Assembly: GCF_026341775.1 (NCBI RefSeq)
Contig: NZ_JAPEOB010000001.1
Location: 2,418,001-2,482,000 of the forward strand
Reading direction: 5' to 3'
From: Streptomyces sp. NBC_00654
GTDB taxonomy: Bacteria; Actinomycetota; Actinomycetes; Streptomycetales; Streptomycetaceae
DNA length: 64,000 nucleotides
Positions 45,449 through 64,000 of the stretch are shown piece after piece. The position numbers were made by a program, and so were the translations under genes. Numbering within the stretch: position 1 is the stretch's first letter; each line of letters begins with the position of its first letter. The notes beneath the pieces were generated by a model. The model was given only the letters and a program-made list of their open reading frames with translations, was not told the origin of the DNA and did no database searches.

Positions 45449-46399
45449 TCAGGCGTCGGGGCGGCCGGTCAGATAGCCGCCCATGGAGGTGAAGTACTCC
45501 GCCGCGGGCAACTCCCGCCCGTCCTCGGTCCGTACGCGTGTGATGGCCAGGCCGTGGTTGCGGCCGGTGCGGGCGTCGGGTCCGGCCACGATCACCACAC
45601 CGTCGCCCTCACGGTAGAAGATGCGGCCGGGCGTACCGCCGTAGCGTCCCTGGGACACCACCGCGGCGAGGAGTTCGAGCCGCTTGCCCTTGTGGAAGGT
45701 GAAGGCGCTGGGGTACGGCTCGGACTGCGCGCGGACCAGACGCTCCAGGACGTCCGCCGGCCAGGTCCAGTCGACACGGATGTCCTCGGCGGAGCGCTTG
45801 TGGAAGAAGCTCGCTGCGGAGCGGTCCTGCTTGGTGAACTCCGCCTGCCCGGTGGCGATCAGGTCGAGGGCGCCGATGGTGACCGGGGCGATGAGGCCGA
45901 CGGTCTTGTGGAACAGGTCGGTCGCGGTGTCCGTGGGACCGACCGGGACCGCCTCCTGCCGGACGATGTCACCGGCGTCGAGTTCGTCGTTCATCATGTG
46001 CGCGGTGACGCCCACTTCGGGCTCACCGTTGATCAGGGCCCAGATCAACGGTGAGAAGCCGGCGTACTTCGGCAGCAGCGAGTCGTGGACGTTCAGCGTG
46101 CCGTGGCGCGGGAGTCCGAAGATGCGCGGGGGTATCCACGTCCGCCAGTTGTTGGCCACGATGATGTCCGGTTCGGCCTCCTTGAGACGCTCGAACACCT
46201 CGTCGTCGGGGCGGTTGCAGATCACCACCGGAACGCCGTGCTCCTCGGCGAGATCGGCGACGGAGTCGCTCCAGATCTTCTCGTACGCGTGCTCGCTCCG
46301 GGGGTGTGTCACGACCAGAACCACGTCGTGATCGGAGTCCAGAAGGGCTTGCAGGGTCCGGTGCCCCCAGGTCTGGTATCCGAACATGGCGACCCGCAT
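45449..46399 (-). CDS. cchA: Coelichelin-type N-hydroxyornithine formyltransferase CchA
   Basis: 316-aa formyltetrahydrofolate-dependent formyltransferase, related to methionyl-tRNA formyltransferase. It is predicted to formylate N5-hydroxyornithine to give the hfOrn building block. The N-terminal fold reads MRVAMFGYQTWGHRTLQAL. Catalytic Asn/His/Asp are in IIVANNWRTW, GTLNVHDSLLPKYAGFSPL and DELDAGDIVRQEAVPV. The C-terminal OB-like domain includes RAQSEPYPSAFTFHKGKRLEL. It diverges from cchB, with iron boxes in between. The cluster context and the NRPS pocket code support the assignment. Confidence 0.92.
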   Translation of the reverse strand: MRVAMFGYQTWGHRTLQALLDSDHDVVLVVTHPRSEHAYEKIWSDSVADLAEEHGVPVVICNRPDDEVFERLKEAEPDIIVANNWRTWIPPRIFGLPRHGTLNVHDSLLPKYAGFSPLIWALINGEPEVGVTAHMMNDELDAGDIVRQEAVPVGPTDTATDLFHKTVGLIAPVTIGALDLIATGQAEFTKQDRSAASFFHKRSAEDIRVDWTWPADVLERLVRAQSEPYPSAFTFHKGKRLELLAAVVSQGRYGGTPGRIFYREGDGVVIVAGPDARTGRNHGLAITRVRTEDGRELPAAEYFTSMGGYLTGRPDA

Positions 46400-46659: not shown

Positions 46660-48006
46660 ATGTCACCGGTTCTTCCTGGCGACGCGGCACCGGTCCACGA
46701 CCTCATAGGCATCGGCTTCGGGCCGTCCAATGTGGCCATGGCCATCGCGCTGAGCGAGCACAACGCACGCGTCGGCAGGCAGGAGACGGTCACCGCCCAC
46801 TTCTTCGAGCAGCAGCCGCGCTTCGGCTGGCACCGCGGCATGCTGATCGACGACGCGACCATGCAGGTGTCCTTTCTCAAGGACCTCGTGACGCTCCGGA
46901 ACCCGGCCAGTGAATTCAGCTTCCTCTGCTACCTGCAGAGCAAGGGCCGTCTGATCGACTTCATCAATCACAAGAACCTCTTCCCCCTGCGGGTGGAGTT
47001 CCACGACTACTTCGAGTGGGCCGCGGCCAAGGTCGACGACATGGTCTCCTACGGCCACGAGGTCGTCGGCGTCACGCCCGTCGTCCGCGACGGAGTCGTG
47101 GAGCACCTGGATGTGACGGTCCGCTCGGCGGAGGGGCTCGTGGTCCACCGTGCCCGCAACCTCGTGATCGGCACCGGGCTGCGTCCCCGCATGCCGGAAG
47201 GCGTGGAGCGCGGCGACCGCGTCTGGCACAACTCCGAACTGCTGTCGAAGGCCGGCGGGCTGGAGGGCACCTCGCCCTCCCGGTTCGTCGTCGTGGGCGC
47301 CGGCCAGAGCGCCGCCGAGAACGTCGCCTATCTGCACCGCTGCTTCCCGCAGGCCGAGATCTGCGCGGTCTTCTCCCGCTACGGCTACAGCCCCGCGGAC
47401 GACAGTGCCTTCGCCAACCGGATCTTCGACCCCGGGGCGGTCGACGAGTACTTCGCCGCGCCCGACGACGTCAAGGGCCGGCTGATGGACTATCACGGAA
47501 ACACCAACTACTCCGTGGTGGACATCGACTTGATCGACGACCTGTACCGGAAGATGTACCAGGAGAAGGTCCTCGGTGCCGAGCGGCTGCGCTTCCTCAA
47601 TGTTTCCCGGCTCGTGGACGTCAAGGAGACACCGGACAGGGTCCACGCCACGGTGAGGTCCCTCGTCACGGGTGAGGAGATGGACGTGGACGCCGACGTG
47701 GTGGTGTGCGCCACCGGCTACAGCCCCGTCGACCCCCTCCGCCTCCTCGGCGAGGTCGCGGACCGCTGCCTCCGCGACGACGAGGGCCGCGTCCGCGTCG
47801 AGCGCGACTACCGCATCACGACGGACCACGACCTGCGCTGCGGGATCTATCTGCAGGGCGGTACGGAGCACACGCACGGCATCACGTCGTCGCTGCTGTC
47901 CAACACCGCGATCCGGGTCGGCGAGATCCTGGACTCACTGGTCGGCCGGGGTGCCAAGTCCGCCTCCGACGAGGCCCGCCCCGTCGTGGACGGAACCGTC
48001 CGTTGA
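46660..48006 (+). CDS. cchB: L-ornithine N5-monooxygenase CchB
   Basis: 448-aa flavin-dependent N-hydroxylating monooxygenase making N5-hydroxyornithine, the hydroxamate precursor. The FAD site is HDLIGIGFGPSNVAMAIA (about residues 13-30). The NADPH site is RFVVVGAGQSAAENVAYLH, and the C-terminal ATGYSP motif is present (VVVCATGYSPVDPL). Substrate-region residues NYSVVDIDLIDDLYRKMYQEKV fit the SidA/PvdA/CchB group. First gene of the iron-box-controlled cch transcript. Confidence 0.95.
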   Translation: MSPVLPGDAAPVHDLIGIGFGPSNVAMAIALSEHNARVGRQETVTAHFFEQQPRFGWHRGMLIDDATMQVSFLKDLVTLRNPASEFSFLCYLQSKGRLIDFINHKNLFPLRVEFHDYFEWAAAKVDDMVSYGHEVVGVTPVVRDGVVEHLDVTVRSAEGLVVHRARNLVIGTGLRPRMPEGVERGDRVWHNSELLSKAGGLEGTSPSRFVVVGAGQSAAENVAYLHRCFPQAEICAVFSRYGYSPADDSAFANRIFDPGAVDEYFAAPDDVKGRLMDYHGNTNYSVVDIDLIDDLYRKMYQEKVLGAERLRFLNVSRLVDVKETPDRVHATVRSLVTGEEMDVDADVVVCATGYSPVDPLRLLGEVADRCLRDDEGRVRVERDYRITTDHDLRCGIYLQGGTEHTHGITSSLLSNTAIRVGEILDSLVGRGAKSASDEARPVVDGTVR

Positions 48007-54520: not shown

Positions 54521-57500
54521 ATGAGGGAACCGAACGCTCGTCCCGTTCTGCTGTCTTCCGCGCGTCTGGACGGCGTACGCCGACGCACCGGTGACTACGG
54601 CGACCGCACCATCGCGCAAGCGTGTGCCATCGCTCTGGCGTACTGGGCGACGGGCCGGAGCCCCGAGGGCGCGGATCTCGCCCCCGGCACGCTGTTCGCC
54701 GATGTCCTCGGATGGGTCGACAACGGCGGCTCCGGGGCCGATGGCTGGGAGGCCGGCGCGGACGGCCGGAGCATCACCGTCCCCGCGGGCGTCGTGCCGG
54801 CCGACGCGCAGCTCGCCCTCGACGATCTGGCCGACTTCCCGGACCGGCCCATCGGCACCGTCGGCCCGGACAGCGCCGCGCTGAGGATCGCCGCCCTGGC
54901 CGAGTGGAACGACACCGGCGCCGACCGGGTCCGCCCGACCGTCGTGGAGATGTTCCGCGAGCAGGCGCGGAACCGGCCGGACGCCATCGCCATCGTCGAC
55001 GAGCACCGTTCGCTGACCTACCGTGAGGCCGCCGAACTCTCCGGCCAGTTGGCCCGTCACCTGGCCGGGCGGGGGCTCACCTCCGAGCAGGTCGTCGGCA
55101 TCTCGCTGGGCCGCTCCGCCGACATGGTGATCGGGCTGCTCGCGGTGCTCCGGGCCGGGTGCGCGTTCGTGCCGCTCGACCCGCAGTGGCCCGCCGCGCG
55201 CCGGGCCGTCGTCGCCGAGGACGCCGGGGTCGTGCTCCAGCTCAACGATTCGGGGGAACACGCGGCGGGCGAACCCGAAGCCGTGGCCGTCGACCTCGGC
55301 GACTGGCGGTTCGCCGCCGAACCCGACCGGGGGACCGGCGAGGCTGTCCGCGGCCCGGACCTGGCGTATGTCATCTTCACGTCCGGTTCGACCGGGCGGC
55401 CCAAGGGCGCGATGATCCGCCACGAGGCGATCAGCGAGCGGCTGCTGTGGCAGGCCGGGGAGATCCTGGGATTCGGCCACGACGACGCGTCCTTGTTCAA
55501 GGCGCCGTTGTCCTTCGACATCTCCATCAACGAGATCTTCCTGCCACTGGTGTCCGGCGGCAGACTGGTGGTCCTGCGGCCCGGCGGCGAACGCGACCCG
55601 CATCACCTGCTGAGCGTCATCGCCGAGCAGCGCGTCACCTTCACCTACCTGGTGTCGTCCATGCTGGACGTACTGCTGGAGATCGCGGGCGACTCCGGGC
55701 GTCTGGACAGCCTGCGGCACGTGTGGTGCGGCGGCGAGGTGCTGACCCCCGAGCTGTACGAGCGGTTCCGCACTCGGCTCGACATCCCCATGTACCACGG
55801 CTACGGCCCGGCCGAGACGACGATCGGTGTCTCCCACGTCATCTACCGGGGCGCGGCCGAGCGTCTGTCGACGTCCATCGGCAGGGCCAACCCCAACACC
55901 CAGCTGTACGTGCTGGACGGCGAACTGCGCCCTGTCCCGGTCGGCGTCGGCGGTGAGCTGTACGTGGGCGGGCTCCTCCTGGCACGCGGCTACGTCAACG
56001 CGCCCGGCCTGACGGCGTCCCGGTTCGTGGCGAATCCGTTCGCCGCGGACGGATCACGGCTCTACCGCACCGGTGACCTCGCGCGGTACCTCCCCGACGG
56101 CTCGCTGGACTTCCTCGGCAGGGCCGACAACCAGATCAAGATCCGCGGCATGCGGCTGGAGATCGAGGACGTCGAGGCCGGTCTCGCGGAGCACCCCGGC
56201 GTACGGCACGTCTGCGTCGTCGCCAGGAAGAACACGGCGGGCGGCACCTATCTGGTGGGGTACGTGATCCCGGCCGCCGGGAGCGAGGAACTGCGGGCGG
56301 ACGAGGTCAGGGCATGGGCCGCCCTGCACATGGTGGAGTACATGGTGCCCGCCCACATCGTCGTGATGGGGGAGTTCCCGCTCACCGCGAACGGCAAGAC
56401 CGACCGGCGGGCGCTGCCGGAGCCCGTGGTCGGGACGGGCGCGGTCCTCACGCCCGTCACCGAGAACGAGCGCGTGGTGTGCGCGGCGGTCGCGACGGTG
56501 CTGCGGCTGGAACGGGTCGGTGCGGACCAGGACTTCTTCCAGCTCGGCGGGGACAGCATTCTGGCGATCTCGCTGCTGAGCGCGCTGCGCGAGGCGGGAC
56601 TGTATGTCACGGCGCGGCAGATCTTCACCAACAGCGTCGTCGGAGCACTGGCGGCGGTGGCGAGCCGTGAGGACATCTCCACCGTGGACCACGGAGATAC
56701 CGCGACCGGTCCCGTCGTGGGATCGCCCATCGTGCAGTGGCTCGGCGAGACCACGGGCGAGATCGACGGCTTCGTCCAGTCGGTGGTGCTCAACACCCCG
56801 GCGGACCTGACCGCCGACGCGCTCGGCACGATTCTCGACGCCGTGACCGCGCGGCACGACATGCTGCGCGCCCGCCTGGTGCGCGGCGACCGCTGGAGCT
56901 TCGACATACCCGGGGCGGAGCACACCGCCGCCGGATGGCAGGAGAGCGACCGTCCGCTGGAGGAGTGCGTCGCGCTCGCCACCGAAGGGCTCGATCCGGC
57001 GGGCGGCGTGATGCTGCGGGCCGTGTGGCGCCGCGAGGCACGGCAGCTGGTCGTGGTCGTCCACCACGTCGTCGTCGACGGTGTGTCCTGGCGGGTCCTG
57101 ATGGAGGACCTGGCCACCGCCTGGCGCCGGCTCTCCTCGGGCGCGCCGGTCGAACTGCCCCCGGCGGGTACGTCGTTCCGGCGCTGGACACAGCTTCTGG
57201 GACGTACGGAGTTCGACGCCGACCGCGAGTACTTCCTCCGCCCCTTGCCGGGAGCGGACGGACCGGTGGGCAGGCGTGCGCTCTCCGGCGCCGACACCGT
57301 CGCCCGGGAGCGGCAGCGGAGCTTCGCGGCCGGCCCCGAGGTCACGGCGGCGCTGCTCGGCGGGATACCCGCGAAGTTCCACGCGGGCGTCAACGACGTG
57401 CTGCTGACCGCGCTGGCCGTCACCCTCGCCCGGTGGCGCCGCGACCTGGGCCAGGACCAGACGTTCGCCCACATCGAACTGGAGGGCCACGGCCGCGAGG

Positions 57501-60500
57501 GCCGCTCCGTGGCGGGCGCCGCCGGATTCGAACCGGACCTCTCACGGACGGTGGGCTGGTTCACCACCCTGTTCCCGGTGACCGTCGACCCCGGTGCGGC
57601 GGCCGATCCCACCGCCCCCGAGTACCTCGCCGCCGCCCTCAAGGCGGTCAAGGAGGACCTCGCACGGGTGCCGGGCAACGGCATCTCCTACGGTGCCCTG
57701 CGGTATCTGGCCGGCACGGTGTTCGACGCGCCCGCGCCACAGGTGCTGTTCAACTACCTGGGCCGCTTCGACGCGGGCGCCCCCGGGGACTGGCAGCTCG
57801 CGGGGACCACCGGGCAGTTGGGCGAGAAACGCGACCCGAGGATGCGCCTGCCGCGCGCCCTGGAGTTCAACGCGATCGCCGAACCCGCCCCGACCGGCGC
57901 GTACGAACTGGTCACCACCATCTCCTGGCCCGAAGGCATGTTCACCGACGAGGACATCGCGACCCTCGGCGGCTACTTCCTGACGGCCCTGGCCGGCCTG
58001 GCCGCGCTCGACGAGGGCGGCCACTCTCCCAGCGACTTCGCCCTGGTGCCGCTCACCCAGTCCGATGTCGACGGCCTGGACGGCCCGGCGCTGCGGAACA
58101 TCCTGCCGTTGACGCCTCTGCAGGAGGGCCTGTACTTCCACTCGGTCTTCGACGACGACTCGGCGGGCAGCTATGTCGAACAGCAACTGCTCACGCTGGA
58201 GGGCGAGGTGGACGCCGACCGCCTCGCGACGGCCGCCACCCGGCTGCTCACGCTGTACCCGAACCTGGCCGCGCGGTTCGTCGCCCTCGCCGACGGCCGG
58301 GTGGTCTCCGTCCTCGAGAGCGGTGCGGAGGTCCCCTTCACCACGCTGGACCTCCCCGGTATCACCGACGAGGAGATCCGCGACCACGCCGAGCGGGACC
58401 GCCGCGCCGGGTTCGACCTGGCCACCGGCCCGCTGATGCGCTGCACGCTGATCCGCGTCGGCTCCGGCCGGAACGTCCTGGTGCAGACCGTGCACCACAT
58501 CATCGCCGACGGCTGGTCGGTGCCGCCGATGCTCCGCTCGCTGCTGGCCGAGTACCACGCGCCGGGGACCGTGTACCCGCTCGGCGGCTTCTCCGACTAC
58601 GTGGAGTGGCTGGCCGGACGCGACGCCGACGAGAGCGACGGGGTGTGGCGCGGCGAACTCGCCGGTCTGCCCGGCCCCTCGCTGGTCACCGAGGGGCACA
58701 CCCCCTCCGACCGGTTCGCCGACACCTCCGTCGTACCCGGGGACGAGGGTGCCGACATCGACGCGGCCGTCCGGTCCGCGGGCGTGCCGCTGAGCGTGGC
58801 CGTGCACAGCGCCTGGGCGGTGACCCTGGGCGGCATCCTGCGCGGCAGGGACGTCGTCTTCGGCTCCACCGTGTCCGGGCGCGACGCGGACGTGCCCGGC
58901 ATCGGCGACATGGTGGGCCTGTTCATCAACACGATCCCCGTGCGCGCACGGTGGACCGGAACCAGCACGGCGCGCGACCTGCTCGCCGCGGTGCGGGAAC
59001 ACCAGAGCGCGGTGCTGCCGCACCAGCATGTCTCGCTGGCGCGGATCGGCCGGCAGGCCGGGGCCGGCGGCGCGCTGTTCGACACCCTGGTCGTCTTCGA
59101 CGTCGCGACGGACGTGGACGCTCTGCGACGGCCCGGCGACACCCTGACCGTCACGTCCCTCGTGAACGAGGGTGCCCCGCACTACCCGTTGACCCTGGTG
59201 GTGGAGCGCGGACGTGACGGCCGCCCGCGCTTCACCCTGATCTACGACGGCGAACTGCTGCGCGAGGCGGGCGCCCAGGAGATCCTGCGGACCTTCACCC
59301 GGACCCTCACCGGCCTGCTCACCCGGCCGGACGCCCCGGTCGACGGCCTGGCAACCGAGGACGGCCGGCGGCCGGCCCGGATCACCCCGACGACCCTGGA
59401 CCAGCTGTTCGACGCCGCCGCGACCCGTGACCCGGCCGCCACCGCCGTCACCCAGTGCGCACTCGACGGCGGCAGCCGCTCACTGACGTACGGCGAACTG
59501 GCGGACGCCAGGGACGAGCTGGCCGCGGCCCTGCGCGTGGCGGGTGCCGGACCCGGCAGGCGGGTCGCCGTCGCGGTGCCGCGCTCCCTCGAACAGGTCG
59601 TCGCCCTGGTCGCGGTCGTCACCGCGGGCGCCGCCTACGTACCACTGGACCCGGCCTACCCGGACGAACGGCTGGAGTACATCCTCGCCGACTCCGCTCC
59701 GCAGGTCGTCCTCGTGGACCGGGAGCAGCAGGACCGCTTCACGGTGCTGCTGGCCCGTGCGGGCGTACCGGCCCGGGTGCTCGTCCAGGGGGAAGAGCCG
59801 CCGGCGGACGAGCGGCGGACGGACGAGCCGCGGACGTCCGGCACGGGCCCCGGCGAGCCGCCGGTCACCACCCGGCCCACCCCCGGGCCCGGCCCGCACG
59901 ACGCCGCGTACGTGATCTACACATCCGGATCGACCGGCAGGCCCAAGGGCGTCGTCGTCCCCCACTCCAGTGTGGTGACGCTGCTCGCGAACACCGGACC
60001 GGACATGGACTTCGGCCCGCACGACGTATGGGTCCAGTTCCACTCCTTCTCCTTCGACTTCGCGGTCTGGGAGCTGTGGGGCGCGCTGGCCCACGGCGGC
60101 GAGCTGCTGGTGCCGGAGTACGGTCTGACGCGCTCCCCGGTCGACTTCCACCGGCTGGTCCGCGAGCGCTCGGTGACCGTGCTCAACCAGACCCCGTCGG
60201 CCTTCTACCAGTTCATCGAGGCCGACCGGCACGCCGACGAGCCGGTCACGGCACTGCGCCGGATCATCTTCGGAGGCGAGCCGCTGGACCTCGGGCGGCT
60301 GCGCGGCTGGACCGAGCGGCACGGTACGGCTTCGCCCGAGCTCGTCAACATGTACGGCATCACGGAGACCACCGTCCATGTCACCCACCGGGTGCTGACG
60401 GACGAGGACTTCGGACCGGGCGACGACGTCAGCCCGATCGGCGGCCCGATCCCCGGACTGGTCACCCATCTGCTCGACGACCGGCTCCGGCCGGTGCCGC

Positions 60501-63500
60501 CCGGCCGGGTGGGCGCCATCTACGTCGCCGGGGACCAGGTGTCCCTCGGCTACCTGGGCAGGCCGGGGCTCACCGCGGCCCGGTTCGTGGCGAATCCGTT
60601 CGCCGGCGACGGCTCCCGGATGTACCACACGGGCGACCTCGCCCGCCGCACGCTCGACGGCGAGCTGGAGTTCACCGGCCGCGCCGACGACCAGGTGCAG
60701 CTCAAGGGGTTCCGTATCGAGCTCGGTGAGGTGGAGTCCGCGGTCAGGGAGCTCGCCGGCGTGGTCGACGCGGCCGTCACCGTGGCGGACGGCGGCGACC
60801 ACCTCGTCGCGCACGTGGTGGGCGGCGTGCCCGGTGACGTCACCGGGCTGCTGGCCGCGAGGCTGCCCGCGCACATGGTGCCGGGCCGGGTGCTGCCCGT
60901 CGACGCCCTGCCGCTGACGGTCAACGGCAAGCTCGACCGGAAGGCGCTGGCCGCGCGTGCCGCCACCGCGCAGGACGGCCCCCCGGCCGCCACGAGCGAT
61001 TCCGCGCTCGCCGCCCTGGTCGGCGTCTTCGCCGAGACGCTGCCCGGATCCGCCCCGGACGCCGACACCGACTTCTTCCGGGCCGGGGGCGACAGCATCG
61101 TCGCCATCACCGTGGTCAACCGGGCCAGGGCGCTCGGCCTGCCGATCGCACCCCGGGACGTGTTCCTCTTCAGGACACCGCGCGCCCTCGCCGAGCACCT
61201 GGGGACACGTACCCCGCAGCCCGCCGCGCCGGCGCCGTCCCGCCGTGCGGACGGCCCGCTGACACCGACACCGATCATCCTGCGCCAGCGCGAACTGGGC
61301 GGCTCGCTCGCCCGGTTCGCCCAGGCCAGAACACTGGTCGCGGCCGAGGGCACCGGGCTCGCCGACGCCGTGCGCGCCGCGAACGCCGTCGTGGCGGCGC
61401 ACCCGGCCCTCCGGCTGCGGCTGCGCGCCGAGCACGGGGTGTGGGCCCTGCGCACCGGACCGGCCGGTGAGATCACCGTCGTCACCGCCGACGCGGCCGA
61501 CGCGACAGCGGCGGCGGACGAGGCCGCCGGACGGCTCGATCCCGAGTCCGGGGACGTCATCGCGTTCTCCTGGCTGGAGGCGAGCCGCACCCTGGTGGTC
61601 ACCGCGCACCACATCGCCGTCGACGCGGTGTCCTGGCTCGTCCTCCTCGACGACCTGGCCACCGCCATGGGCGGGGCGGACCTGGCGCCGCCGACCACGT
61701 CCTACGCCGAGTACGCCGAGGCGCTCGCGGCACGGTCCGCCCACGAGACGGAAAGCCTGGGCAACTGGATCACCACACTCCAGGCCCCCGCGCCGCTGCC
61801 TCCGGCCGTACGGCTCCGCGAGACCACCGTCGTCCTCGCGCCCGGGGCGAGCGACCGGGTGACGCGCACCGCCCCCGCCGCACTCGGCGTGGGGCTCACC
61901 GAACTGCTGTGCGGCGCGCTGCGCGCCGCGCTGACACGGATCCAGCCGGAGCCCACCGATCTCGCGATCGAGCTGGAGCGGCACGGCCGGGTTCCCGCCC
62001 TCGAACACCACGACTACACCCGCACGGTCGGCTGGTTCACCTCCATCGCGCCCGTACGGCTCACCCCGCGCACCGACCCCGTCGCGGCGGCGCGCGAGGT
62101 CGCCGAACGCCAGCCGGACGAGCGCGGGCACGTCGCCTACGGCGCGCTCAGATACCTCAACCCGCAGACGGCCCCACTGCTGAACGCCCGCCCGCAGGTG
62201 CTGTTCAACTACCTCGGCCGGGGCGGCGAGTCCGAGGTGCCGCGCCTCACCGGCGGGGACCGGGGCAGCCCGTACGCCGTCGAGGTCAACGCGTGGACCG
62301 ACGAGGCCACCGGAAGCCTGCACGCGGCCTTCACCCTCGCGGAGGGCGTGTCCGACGAGATCACCGGGCACTGGCTCGGCGCACTGGAGCACATCGCGGA
62401 CGTGTCCGCGACGGCCGAGCGCACCGCACCGGTCACCCCGCTCCAGCGGGGTCTGTTCTTCCAGGCCCAGATGGCGGGGACGGCCGGACACTATGTCGCG
62501 CAGTCCTACTTCGCCTTCGACCGGCGCCTGGACACCGACGCGCTCGCCGGGGCGATGGCGTACGTGATCGCGAGGCACCCGGTCATGGGCGCCGGCTTCA
62601 CCACCGACGACGGCGGAAACCCGGTCCAGGTCCTCAGGGCCGGCCGGCGGGTCGATGTCCGTACCGTCGCCCTGTCGACGGACGCGGAGGTCGACGCCCT
62701 GCGCGCCCGGGACCGCGACACGGGATTCGACCCGGGGGAGCCGCCCCTGATCCGGCTCACCGTGGTGCGGCTGCCCGGTCACGGGGACGGGCTGCTGCTG
62801 AGCTACCACCTGCTGCTGCTGGACGGCTGGTCCCGCGAGATCCTGCTGCGGGACCTGTTCGACGCCTATGAGACCGTCGTCGCGGGAGGGATACCGTCCG
62901 CGTCGCCGGCCCTGCCGAGCTTCGAGGACCACGCCCGGACGCTCGCCGCCAAGGACCCCGCCGTGTCGGAGCGTTTCTGGGCGGAGCACCTGGCCGGCCT
63001 CAGCGGTCCGACCCTGCTCGCCGGACCGCGGCCGTCCCTCCCCGACGAACTGCCCCACGCGCTCGTGCGCACACTCTCCGCCGACCTGTCCGAACTGCTG
63101 CGGGAAGCGGCCAGGCTGCACGGCGTCACACTGAACTCGGTGCTGACCGGCGCGTTCGGCCTTCTCCTCGGCGCACACACGGGCCGCGCCGACGCCGTGT
63201 TCGGCGTGACCGTCTCGGGCCGGGACGGCGAGGGCCTGTCCGACATCGTCGGCGTGCTGCTCAACACCGTGCCCATGTGGACCCGGGCGCGCCCCCACGA
63301 CACGGTCCGCGACTACCTGTCGGCCGTCCAGGCGGCCCGGGTCGAGGCGATGGAGCACGAGCACCTGGGGCTCGGCGAGATCCAGCGGGCCAGCGGGCAC
63401 GACACCCTGTTCGACAACCTGTTCGTCCTCCAGAACTTCCTGGACATGGACGCGTTCGCCGAGATGAACGCCCGGCACGGCATCACCTCGGTGAAGGCCG

Positions 63501-64000
63501 ACGACTCCACGCACTACCCGTTCACCTGGGTCGTCACCCCCGGCGACCGGCTGACGGTCAAGCTGGAGCACCGCGACCACGACACCGGCAACGCCCGCCG
63601 TCTCCTGGACGGTTATGTGCGCGTGCTGGAGGACCTGGCCGGGGCGACGGGCCCGGTGGGGGCTCTGCCGGGCCTCGGAGCGGATCCCGCGCCCGCGGAA
63701 CGTACGGACGTGGGCACGGACACCGTCGTCGACCGGTTCGACCGGGCCGCGGACCGTGATCCGGGGCGGGTCGCGCTCGTCGCCCACGGTTCGGCCATGA
63801 CGTTCGGTGAACTCCGCGACCGCAGCCGCACGGTGGCAGGTGTGCTCGCCGGGCGGGGCATCGGCCCCGAGCAGGCCGTGGGCCTGGCGGTCCCGCGTTC
63901 CCTGGACTCGATCGTGGCGCTGTTCGCCGTGCTGCGCGTCGGCGCCGCGTACGTGCCGCTGGAGCTGGACCACCCGGACGAGCGGATCGCCACGATCGTC
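54521..64000 (+). CDS. cchH: Coelichelin-type nonribosomal peptide synthetase CchH (3' end outside window)
   Basis: Frame open from ATG 54521 to the window end (about 3,160 residues seen). Domain order: short N-terminal region; A1 (about 115-640); PCP1 (LGGDSI, Ser679); E1 (HHVVVDGVSWR, His848-His849); C1 (HHIIADGWS, His1325-His1326); A2 (about 1620-2150); PCP2 (AGGDSI, Ser2192); E2 (HHIAVDAVSW, His2363-His2364); C2 (HLLLLDGWS, His2763 then Leu2764 where the catalytic His should be); A3 begins near 3065. Pocket residues are A1 DINYWGGIGK and A2 DFWNIGMVHK, fitting formyl-hydroxyornithine and threonine in coelichelin; E domains imply D-configured residues 1 and 2. A3 and any release domain lie outside. 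Confidence 0.93.
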   Translation, partial: MREPNARPVLLSSARLDGVRRRTGDYGDRTIAQACAIALAYWATGRSPEGADLAPGTLFADVLGWVDNGGSGADGWEAGADGRSITVPAGVVPADAQLALDDLADFPDRPIGTVGPDSAALRIAALAEWNDTGADRVRPTVVEMFREQARNRPDAIAIVDEHRSLTYREAAELSGQLARHLAGRGLTSEQVVGISLGRSADMVIGLLAVLRAGCAFVPLDPQWPAARRAVVAEDAGVVLQLNDSGEHAAGEPEAVAVDLGDWRFAAEPDRGTGEAVRGPDLAYVIFTSGSTGRPKGAMIRHEAISERLLWQAGEILGFGHDDASLFKAPLSFDISINEIFLPLVSGGRLVVLRPGGERDPHHLLSVIAEQRVTFTYLVSSMLDVLLEIAGDSGRLDSLRHVWCGGEVLTPELYERFRTRLDIPMYHGYGPAETTIGVSHVIYRGAAERLSTSIGRANPNTQLYVLDGELRPVPVGVGGELYVGGLLLARGYVNAPGLTASRFVANPFAADGSRLYRTGDLARYLPDGSLDFLGRADNQIKIRGMRLEIEDVEAGLAEHPGVRHVCVVARKNTAGGTYLVGYVIPAAGSEELRADEVRAWAALHMVEYMVPAHIVVMGEFPLTANGKTDRRALPEPVVGTGAVLTPVTENERVVCAAVATVLRLERVGADQDFFQLGGDSILAISLLSALREAGLYVTARQIFTNSVVGALAAVASREDISTVDHGDTATGPVVGSPIVQWLGETTGEIDGFVQSVVLNTPADLTADALGTILDAVTARHDMLRARLVRGDRWSFDIPGAEHTAAGWQESDRPLEECVALATEGLDPAGGVMLRAVWRREARQLVVVVHHVVVDGVSWRVLMEDLATAWRRLSSGAPVELPPAGTSFRRWTQLLGRTEFDADREYFLRPLPGADGPVGRRALSGADTVARERQRSFAAGPEVTAALLGGIPAKFHAGVNDVLLTALAVTLARWRRDLGQDQTFAHIELEGHGREGRSVAGAAGFEPDLSRTVGWFTTLFPVTVDPGAAADPTAPEYLAAALKAVKEDLARVPGNGISYGALRYLAGTVFDAPAPQVLFNYLGRFDAGAPGDWQLAGTTGQLGEKRDPRMRLPRALEFNAIAEPAPTGAYELVTTISWPEGMFTDEDIATLGGYFLTALAGLAALDEGGHSPSDFALVPLTQSDVDGLDGPALRNILPLTPLQEGLYFHSVFDDDSAGSYVEQQLLTLEGEVDADRLATAATRLLTLYPNLAARFVALADGRVVSVLESGAEVPFTTLDLPGITDEEIRDHAERDRRAGFDLATGPLMRCTLIRVGSGRNVLVQTVHHIIADGWSVPPMLRSLLAEYHAPGTVYPLGGFSDYVEWLAGRDADESDGVWRGELAGLPGPSLVTEGHTPSDRFADTSVVPGDEGADIDAAVRSAGVPLSVAVHSAWAVTLGGILRGRDVVFGSTVSGRDADVPGIGDMVGLFINTIPVRARWTGTSTARDLLAAVREHQSAVLPHQHVSLARIGRQAGAGGALFDTLVVFDVATDVDALRRPGDTLTVTSLVNEGAPHYPLTLVVERGRDGRPRFTLIYDGELLREAGAQEILRTFTRTLTGLLTRPDAPVDGLATEDGRRPARITPTTLDQLFDAAATRDPAATAVTQCALDGGSRSLTYGELADARDELAAALRVAGAGPGRRVAVAVPRSLEQVVALVAVVTAGAAYVPLDPAYPDERLEYILADSAPQVVLVDREQQDRFTVLLARAGVPARVLVQGEEPPADERRTDEPRTSGTGPGEPPVTTRPTPGPGPHDAAYVIYTSGSTGRPKGVVVPHSSVVTLLANTGPDMDFGPHDVWVQFHSFSFDFAVWELWGALAHGGELLVPEYGLTRSPVDFHRLVRERSVTVLNQTPSAFYQFIEADRHADEPVTALRRIIFGGEPLDLGRLRGWTERHGTASPELVNMYGITETTVHVTHRVLTDEDFGPGDDVSPIGGPIPGLVTHLLDDRLRPVPPGRVGAIYVAGDQVSLGYLGRPGLTAARFVANPFAGDGSRMYHTGDLARRTLDGELEFTGRADDQVQLKGFRIELGEVESAVRELAGVVDAAVTVADGGDHLVAHVVGGVPGDVTGLLAARLPAHMVPGRVLPVDALPLTVNGKLDRKALAARAATAQDGPPAATSDSALAALVGVFAETLPGSAPDADTDFFRAGGDSIVAITVVNRARALGLPIAPRDVFLFRTPRALAEHLGTRTPQPAAPAPSRRADGPLTPTPIILRQRELGGSLARFAQARTLVAAEGTGLADAVRAANAVVAAHPALRLRLRAEHGVWALRTGPAGEITVVTADAADATAAADEAAGRLDPESGDVIAFSWLEASRTLVVTAHHIAVDAVSWLVLLDDLATAMGGADLAPPTTSYAEYAEALAARSAHETESLGNWITTLQAPAPLPPAVRLRETTVVLAPGASDRVTRTAPAALGVGLTELLCGALRAALTRIQPEPTDLAIELERHGRVPALEHHDYTRTVGWFTSIAPVRLTPRTDPVAAAREVAERQPDERGHVAYGALRYLNPQTAPLLNARPQVLFNYLGRGGESEVPRLTGGDRGSPYAVEVNAWTDEATGSLHAAFTLAEGVSDEITGHWLGALEHIADVSATAERTAPVTPLQRGLFFQAQMAGTAGHYVAQSYFAFDRRLDTDALAGAMAYVIARHPVMGAGFTTDDGGNPVQVLRAGRRVDVRTVALSTDAEVDALRARDRDTGFDPGEPPLIRLTVVRLPGHGDGLLLSYHLLLLDGWSREILLRDLFDAYETVVAGGIPSASPALPSFEDHARTLAAKDPAVSERFWAEHLAGLSGPTLLAGPRPSLPDELPHALVRTLSADLSELLREAARLHGVTLNSVLTGAFGLLLGAHTGRADAVFGVTVSGRDGEGLSDIVGVLLNTVPMWTRARPHDTVRDYLSAVQAARVEAMEHEHLGLGEIQRASGHDTLFDNLFVLQNFLDMDAFAEMNARHGITSVKADDSTHYPFTWVVTPGDRLTVKLEHRDHDTGNARRLLDGYVRVLEDLAGATGPVGALPGLGADPAPAERTDVGTDTVVDRFDRAADRDPGRVALVAHGSAMTFGELRDRSRTVAGVLAGRGIGPEQAVGLAVPRSLDSIVALFAVLRVGAAYVPLELDHPDERIATIV

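Follow-up and report, generated by a model that had tools for sequence, protein, structure and literature searches.

How does a condensation (C) domain work without the second histidine (His2) of its HHxxxDG motif? The question is raised by a cchH-type nonribosomal peptide synthetase (NRPS) gene at 54521..64000 (+) of the window, the whole 64,000-nucleotide stretch of Streptomyces sp. NBC_00654 analyzed here. In the second C domain of its product (C2; 62393..63700, +; located by profile match and predicted fold), the codons at 62801..62833 (+), agc tac cac ctg ctg ctg ctg gac ggc tgg tcc, encode SYHLLLLDGWS (residues 2761–2771, from S2761). Counted back from DG, the first histidine (His1) is kept as H2763 and His2 is Leu2764 (ctg; 62810..62812, +); re-reading bears out the positions and residues given for this motif by the first-pass annotation. 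C2 scores above the cut-off of the condensation-domain profile PF00668 and, as in the DCL subtype, has an E domain (E2) ahead of it in the same protein. It is predicted to adopt the C-domain fold, with a first PDB match at TM 0.79 and Foldseek matches that are ordinary C domains. C2 resembles canonical C domains (FscG C3, PvdL C3, and SrfA-C) in PF00668 membership, predicted fold, retention of DG, and its place before an A domain, but differs from canonical HHxxxDG/HHxxxDE domains in lacking His2 and in changes at positions 2940, 2947, 2762, and 2767.

The window carries most of a coelichelin-type siderophore cluster. The synthetase, 3653 aa in all, has the layout A-T-E-C-A-T-E-C-A-T and ends about 1.5 kb beyond the window (L011:4521-15482). 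Its domains, all on the + strand, include A1 (54938..56425), whose signature FDISINEI we take to be of the formyl-hydroxyornithine type; A2 (59387..60970), whose signature FDFAVWEL is presumably of the threonine type; and the start of A3 (63743..64000, continuing beyond the window), whose code DMENLGLIN we assign to delta-N-hydroxyornithine (hOrn). Both histidines are present, as had been claimed, in E1 (56723..58075; VHHVVVDG), C1 (58100..59320; the canonical TVHHIIADGWS), and E2 (61253..62320; AHHIAVDA). The E2 motif carries Ala for the Gly of HHxxxDG, giving DA rather than DG. Three modules with FDISINE in A1, FDFAVWE in A2, and DMENLGLIN in A3 make the NRPS a coelichelin synthetase by layout and A codes, like CchH of Streptomyces, and exporter, N-monooxygenase-like, formyltransferase-like, and esterase-like neighbors are shared with the coelichelin cluster. 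The surrounding family matches (formyltransferase, N-monooxygenase, ferric-siderophore ABC, exporter, and enterochelin esterase) all fall under their curated cut-offs. A flavin N-monooxygenase-like gene (46660..48006, +; presumably cchB-like) reaches 174 bits against a cut-off of 700 in its best family, TIGR04439, and its product is a probable ornithine N-hydroxylase; a formyltransferase-like gene (45449..46399, −; which we take to be cchA-like) reaches 222.6 bits in its best family against a cut-off of 316. A 70-aa ORF (L011:18715-18927) looks MbtH-like by eye and has no NCBIfam match. A search at E 1e-115 in the genome to which the window belongs, in which 4 of the 105 candidates were scored, gave no second hOrn-like A domain.

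Leu2764 is a fixed feature of coelichelin-type synthetases. A scan of 246 genomes of the genus gave C2 matches of at least 783 bits in 55, a count that includes the genome of the window; from a scan of named genomes, the best 80 of 191 stretches encoding C2 relatives were taken as the coelichelin-type set. The alignment with coelichelin-type relatives that the first-pass annotation had proposed gives Leu at the His2 place in 80/80 loci (77 LLSYHLLLWDGWS, 2 LFSYHLLLWDGWS, and 1 LLSHHLLLWDGWS), which include Streptomyces, Nonomuraea, Streptosporangium, and Sphaerimonospora. Because all 80 relatives have Leu there, we rejected a sequencing error or a mutation local to this strain and give that reading next to no weight, although the neighboring Leu2767 (ctg; 62819..62821, +) might have suggested it, being found in none of the 80. 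Leu2767, directly before DG and unmentioned in the first-pass annotation, is peculiar to this strain: Trp stands there in all 80 relatives, a difference from CchH as represented by this set, outside which the S. coelicolor protein itself falls.

Purifying selection acts on C2 much as it does on C1. Relative to the window, median identity is 83.9% for C2 (80 loci) and 84.0% for C1 (79 loci), and median dN/dS over 10 chosen relatives is 0.318 for C2, 0.304 for C1, 0.306 for E1, 0.425 for E2, and 0.182 for A3. These values bear on the reading in which C2 is dead or merely gatekeeping and another enzyme makes the bond. A domain missing its supposed catalytic residue invites such a reading, as does the description of coelichelin assembly as not collinear in excerpts of PMC9854754; against it, C2 matches C1 in both identity and dN/dS, and D-G-W-S is retained in 40/40 representatives of the His2-less domains described below. 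We dropped the idea of a pseudo-domain on the identity and dN/dS values and consider a dead C2 very improbable.

Beyond this set, the closest C domains share about 40% identity and are of two kinds, according to the downstream A domain. Those ahead of an A domain like A3 of CchH read GRHLLLWDG, SHHLVAWDG, THHLILWDG, NRQFLVWDG, or SRRFLLWDG; those ahead of other A domains have a canonical HH, also where W precedes DG (TNHHILWDG, SSHHLLWDG). Because the near C domains split by A domain in this way, we searched with A3 and read the C domains upstream of its matches. These searches took in 396 genomes at the level of the phylum, 345 at that of the class, and 201 from a single family, and the upstream C domain was read in at most 30 loci per search, a subset of the matches listed. 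For the count of C-A pairs, 448 A domains were considered, 115 were dropped for having no readable C domain ahead (2 of them with the hOrn code), and the remaining 333 pairs were de-duplicated to 315: 163 with the hOrn code (161 full and 2 with a cut DMENLGLIN) and 152 with other codes, including 5 whose code was cut or could not be read.

His2 was absent from 160 of the 163 C domains directly before a DMENLGLIN A domain and from 0 of the 152 before other codes; no other C domain ahead of an A domain in the sample had lost it. The window's own locus and the 80 coelichelin-type loci (L011–L091) supply 80 of the 163 hOrn pairs and 75 of the 152 others, and with these left out the counts become 80/83 and 0/77. 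The other-code set is lopsided, one threonine code accounting for 78 of its 152 pairs (74 of those 78 from coelichelin loci). Clustering at 80% identity left 138 representatives: among hOrn-code domains, 40 without His2 and 2 with it; among the others, 0 without and 96 with. Judged by A-domain codes, His2 loss goes with the predicted hOrn acceptor and is shared by nearly all of the actinobacterial hOrn-joining C domains found.

In a free MAFFT alignment of the 138 representatives, the Leu2764 column separates the two groups better than any other. It holds His in 96/96 canonical domains, and Leu (18), Phe (18), Val (3), or Gln (1) in the 40 without His2; His1 is also gone in 19 of these 40 (Gln in 10, Glu in 6, Arg in 3). 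Two further columns differ between the groups: at 2940 (Arg in the window; 63338..63340, +), Arg in 35 and Tyr in 5 of the 40 His2-less representatives versus Gln or Asp in 70/96 canonical domains, and at 2947 (Glu in the window; 63359..63361, +), Glu or Asp in 39/40 versus Gln or His in 74/96.

Does Leu2764 occupy the His2 place? It aligns with H2697 of FscG. Excerpts of PMC8097023 report about 1% of activity left in the FscG H2697Q mutant, so that His2 is not dispensable in C domains generally. In AlphaFold models, the first His marks the predicted end of the strand in C2 and likewise in C1; the models are modest, with a mean pLDDT of 73 for C2 (90 for residues 131–140 and 63 for residues 141–150) and 64 for C1, and of 63 (C2) and 66 (C1) over a ten-residue stretch covering most of the motif loop. 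The alignment and the predicted ends of the strands agree in placing Leu, not His, at this position, and the shifted alignment that the first-pass annotation had named as a possible refutation did not materialize. A register shift would have the strand itself moved by one residue, with the pair at −6/−5 before DG (Y2762-H2763) acting as HH and an extra residue before DG. Such a move would account for the loci in which two histidines come one step early, as S/T-HH-LxxW-DG (L124, L127–L132, L140, L142, L146, L147, L151, L154, L191, and L242), and for the −6 residue, which is R, H, Y, S, or N in 40/40 His2-less representatives and L, A, V, F, I, or M in 63/96 canonical ones. It is nevertheless doubtful: besides the strand ends, the free alignment opens no gap at the motif, and in many members neither −6 nor −5 is a His (NRQF, NREF, SRRF, NRQV, TSEL, TSQV, TYWF).

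A C-domain tree built with the motif columns removed places 39 of the 40 His2-less domains in one group (support 99), with the fuscachelin type as its sister (support 99) and the 40th domain, L240, outside. C2 belongs to this group and stands before a DMENLGLIN A domain. The free trees point to L240 as a second, independent loss, although a single clade of all His2-less rows was not rejected (53-row subset, p-AU 0.659). Parsimony counts 2 changes, and with no more than 1 or 2 independent pairs to compare, a paired test lacks power. On these trees, His2 appears to have been lost once, perhaps twice, and not 160 times; counts such as 160/163 are therefore not independent events. They show that His2 was not regained in these members, many of which are only about 40% identical.

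Five hOrn modules are exceptions that keep His2. One set consists of L236, L237, and L238, single C-A-T-TE modules of the fuscachelin type with the code DMENLGLIN. The Thermobifida protein of L236, presumably FscI, shares its A code with the His2-less clade and is its sister in the tree, but differs in keeping HH (TFHHIVMDG) and in being a single C-A-T-TE module. Over 424 residues, C3 of L236 shows no difference from the 8FX6 sequence printed in the alignment, 7KVW scores alike, and 12 checked residue numbers from PMC8097023 fit; by these sequence matches, L236 is the published fuscachelin system or a near twin. His2 is also kept in the second hOrn module, and absent from the first, of a Pseudonocardia plasmid line (L254/L279, ending in E) and an Embleya line (L257/L280, ending in TE); an alpha-amine bond to the last hOrn would fit the His2 of these second modules. 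A rule that the terminal hOrn module keeps His2 was tried and discarded: of seven T-TE hOrn modules, four keep it (L236–L238 and L280) and three lack it, and the rule is not clean because these three (L126, L268, and L269) end in T-TE all the same.

Whole assembly lines place the loss in a wider setting. We read 20 stretches of up to 20 kb together with L011, L122, L124, and L125; 17 more stretches and plasmid records, added later, brought the hOrn modules to 50 in all. Among the 49 with a C domain in frame, 44 lack His2 and 5 keep it, a set that overlaps the C-A pairs and counts one module twice (L122 and L246). In L272, the hOrn module has no C domain in frame, and THHLLLWDGWS is present in another frame. 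By architecture, we label six lines erythrochelin-like (L124, L125, L229, L230, L242, and L243); in each, the hOrn-module C domain lacks His2 and the C domain of the next module is HHxxxDE, before code DVEIVTAVN or DVEVVTAVN. Three NRPSs labeled exochelin-like on the same basis (L234, L235, and L248) have two hOrn modules each, with both C domains lacking His2. The first-pass annotation had linked the missing histidine to the extra coupling step of coelichelin; that link finds no support, the same loss occurring in many other hOrn-module NRPSs, including the erythrochelin-like and exochelin-like ones.

Donor type does not explain the loss either, because hOrn C domains with no E domain ahead also lack His2 (L122/L246, L240, L242, and the first hOrn modules of L234, L235, and L248); a tie to D-configured donors or to a preceding E domain was rejected on this ground. 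N-methyltransferase inserts, present in L232, L233, L240, L241, L244, L246, L280, and L274 and absent in L235, were set aside as proof of delta-N bonding. The last C domain of the erythrochelin-like lines, with no A domain after it, reads HYxxxDE in L229, L230, L242, L125, and L243 and has AY in L124; it is perhaps a cyclizing domain. The last C domains of L273, L275, L276, and L277 likewise have HY.

We favor as probable the reading that C2 is an active C-domain subtype that takes thioester-bound hOrn, likely through N-delta(OH), and needs no His2. The His2 loss itself, its conservation, its association with hOrn, the near-monophyly of the domains that share it, the intact fold prediction, and purifying selection are the observations behind this reading; the catalytic activity of C2, the identity of the attacking nitrogen, and the reason for which the histidine can be spared are what we infer from them. 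The alternative raised in the first-pass annotation, that the domain works without the histidine, gains support at the level of sequence from conservation, from purifying selection, and from the existence of an entire clade that shares the loss. Activity of the His2-less hOrn C domains is predicted because of this conservation and of the products that are known.

In the proposed mechanism, the side-chain hydroxylamine N-delta(OH) of hOrn would attack the D-allo-Thr thioester and leave an in-chain hydroxamate. Hydroxylamines are weak bases, for the most part unprotonated at neutral pH, and unusually strong nucleophiles; the His2 needed for ammonium-type alpha-amine acceptors, as base or positioner, may therefore be dispensable for this one. 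His2 would have been lost in the ancestor of the clade, with Leu, Phe, Val, or Gln in its place, while the Asp and Gly of the motif stayed. Parallel changes would have brought in R2940, E/D2947, W2767, and a polar residue directly ahead of the former His1; of these, the polar −6 residue (R, H, Y, S, or N), R/Y2940, and E/D2947 may hold the new acceptor. The product points the same way: for an unformylated in-chain hOrn to yield a hydroxamate, acylation has to take place on its delta-N, and coelichelin is a tris-hydroxamate; therefore its unformylated hOrn should be acylated on N-delta(OH). We take coelichelin to contain two formyl-hydroxyornithines. In contrast, excerpts of PMC9854754 give it two threonines, with module 2 re-used. 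The open-licence PMC text consulted does not name the bonding nitrogen of coelichelin.

Substrate assistance would also link the loss to hOrn. In such a scheme, attack would come from the alpha-amine of hOrn, and the hydroxylamine of that substrate would stand in for His2 as the base or as a hydrogen-bonding partner. The loss tracks the hOrn A code here as well, and alpha-amine and delta-N attack look alike in sequence. However, the fuscachelin-type modules and two second hOrn modules share the A code and keep His2, and an unformylated in-chain hOrn could make its hydroxamate only by delta-N acylation; we regard substrate assistance as unlikely, if slightly less so than the moved strand.

Attack by the side-chain hydroxylamine, our preferred reading, would have a general consequence, to which we lean with somewhat less assurance than to the reading of C2 itself. 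A separate class of C domains for hydroxamate bonds would work without His2 in six family-level groups of the phylum. As natural knock-outs, these domains would indicate that His2 serves alpha-amine nucleophiles, as base or positioner, and not C-domain catalysis as such, and their motif would predict side-chain bonds in siderophores. Excerpts of a 2024 review (PMC11546977) call the role of the second His (base, positioner, or transition-state stabilizer) unresolved, and those of PMC10587159 assign it a positioning role. Two kinds of C-family domain are described in excerpts of PMC11546977 as working without the second His: the streptothricin ORF18 C domain (HQxxxDM) and heterocyclization domains (DxxxxD). 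They resemble C2 in family and in this absence but differ in motif and chemistry, by which description they are set apart. Excerpts of PMC8097023 find altered motifs more frequent where the acceptor is small, and do not name hOrn. Among the matches listed from open-licence PMC text, a corpus outside which most older siderophore papers fall, no paper on His2 loss in hOrn C domains appeared, and the excerpts of PMC10212144 and PMC12971057 make no mention of it.

A clade in which the loss tracks a change of acceptor, together with a sister lineage that has the same code and keeps the His, supplies matched enzymes for a direct test, and the old dispute over the second His becomes testable with the His2-less hOrn clade. 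If the nitrogen rule is true, genome miners could predict side-chain hydroxamate linkages in siderophores from the motif, and engineers would gain a domain that joins through hydroxylamines.

Several single lines depart from the common patterns. The hOrn-module C domains of L266 and L267 read TYWFGCFDGGS, with W and F for the two histidines and GGS for the usual GWS. In L271, the C domain before code DAEDLGLIN reads TFEHLLFDGWS: Glu replaces the first His and the second remains, opposite to the usual loss. A canonical HH stands in the Rhizobium plasmid lines that share the A code DAEDLGLIN (L249, L250, and L258). The contig of L124, which bears a siderophore-type NRPS of 5102 aa of this kind, is assigned to a 2.4-Mb genome (94% complete, 2% contaminated) from a different family of the phylum.
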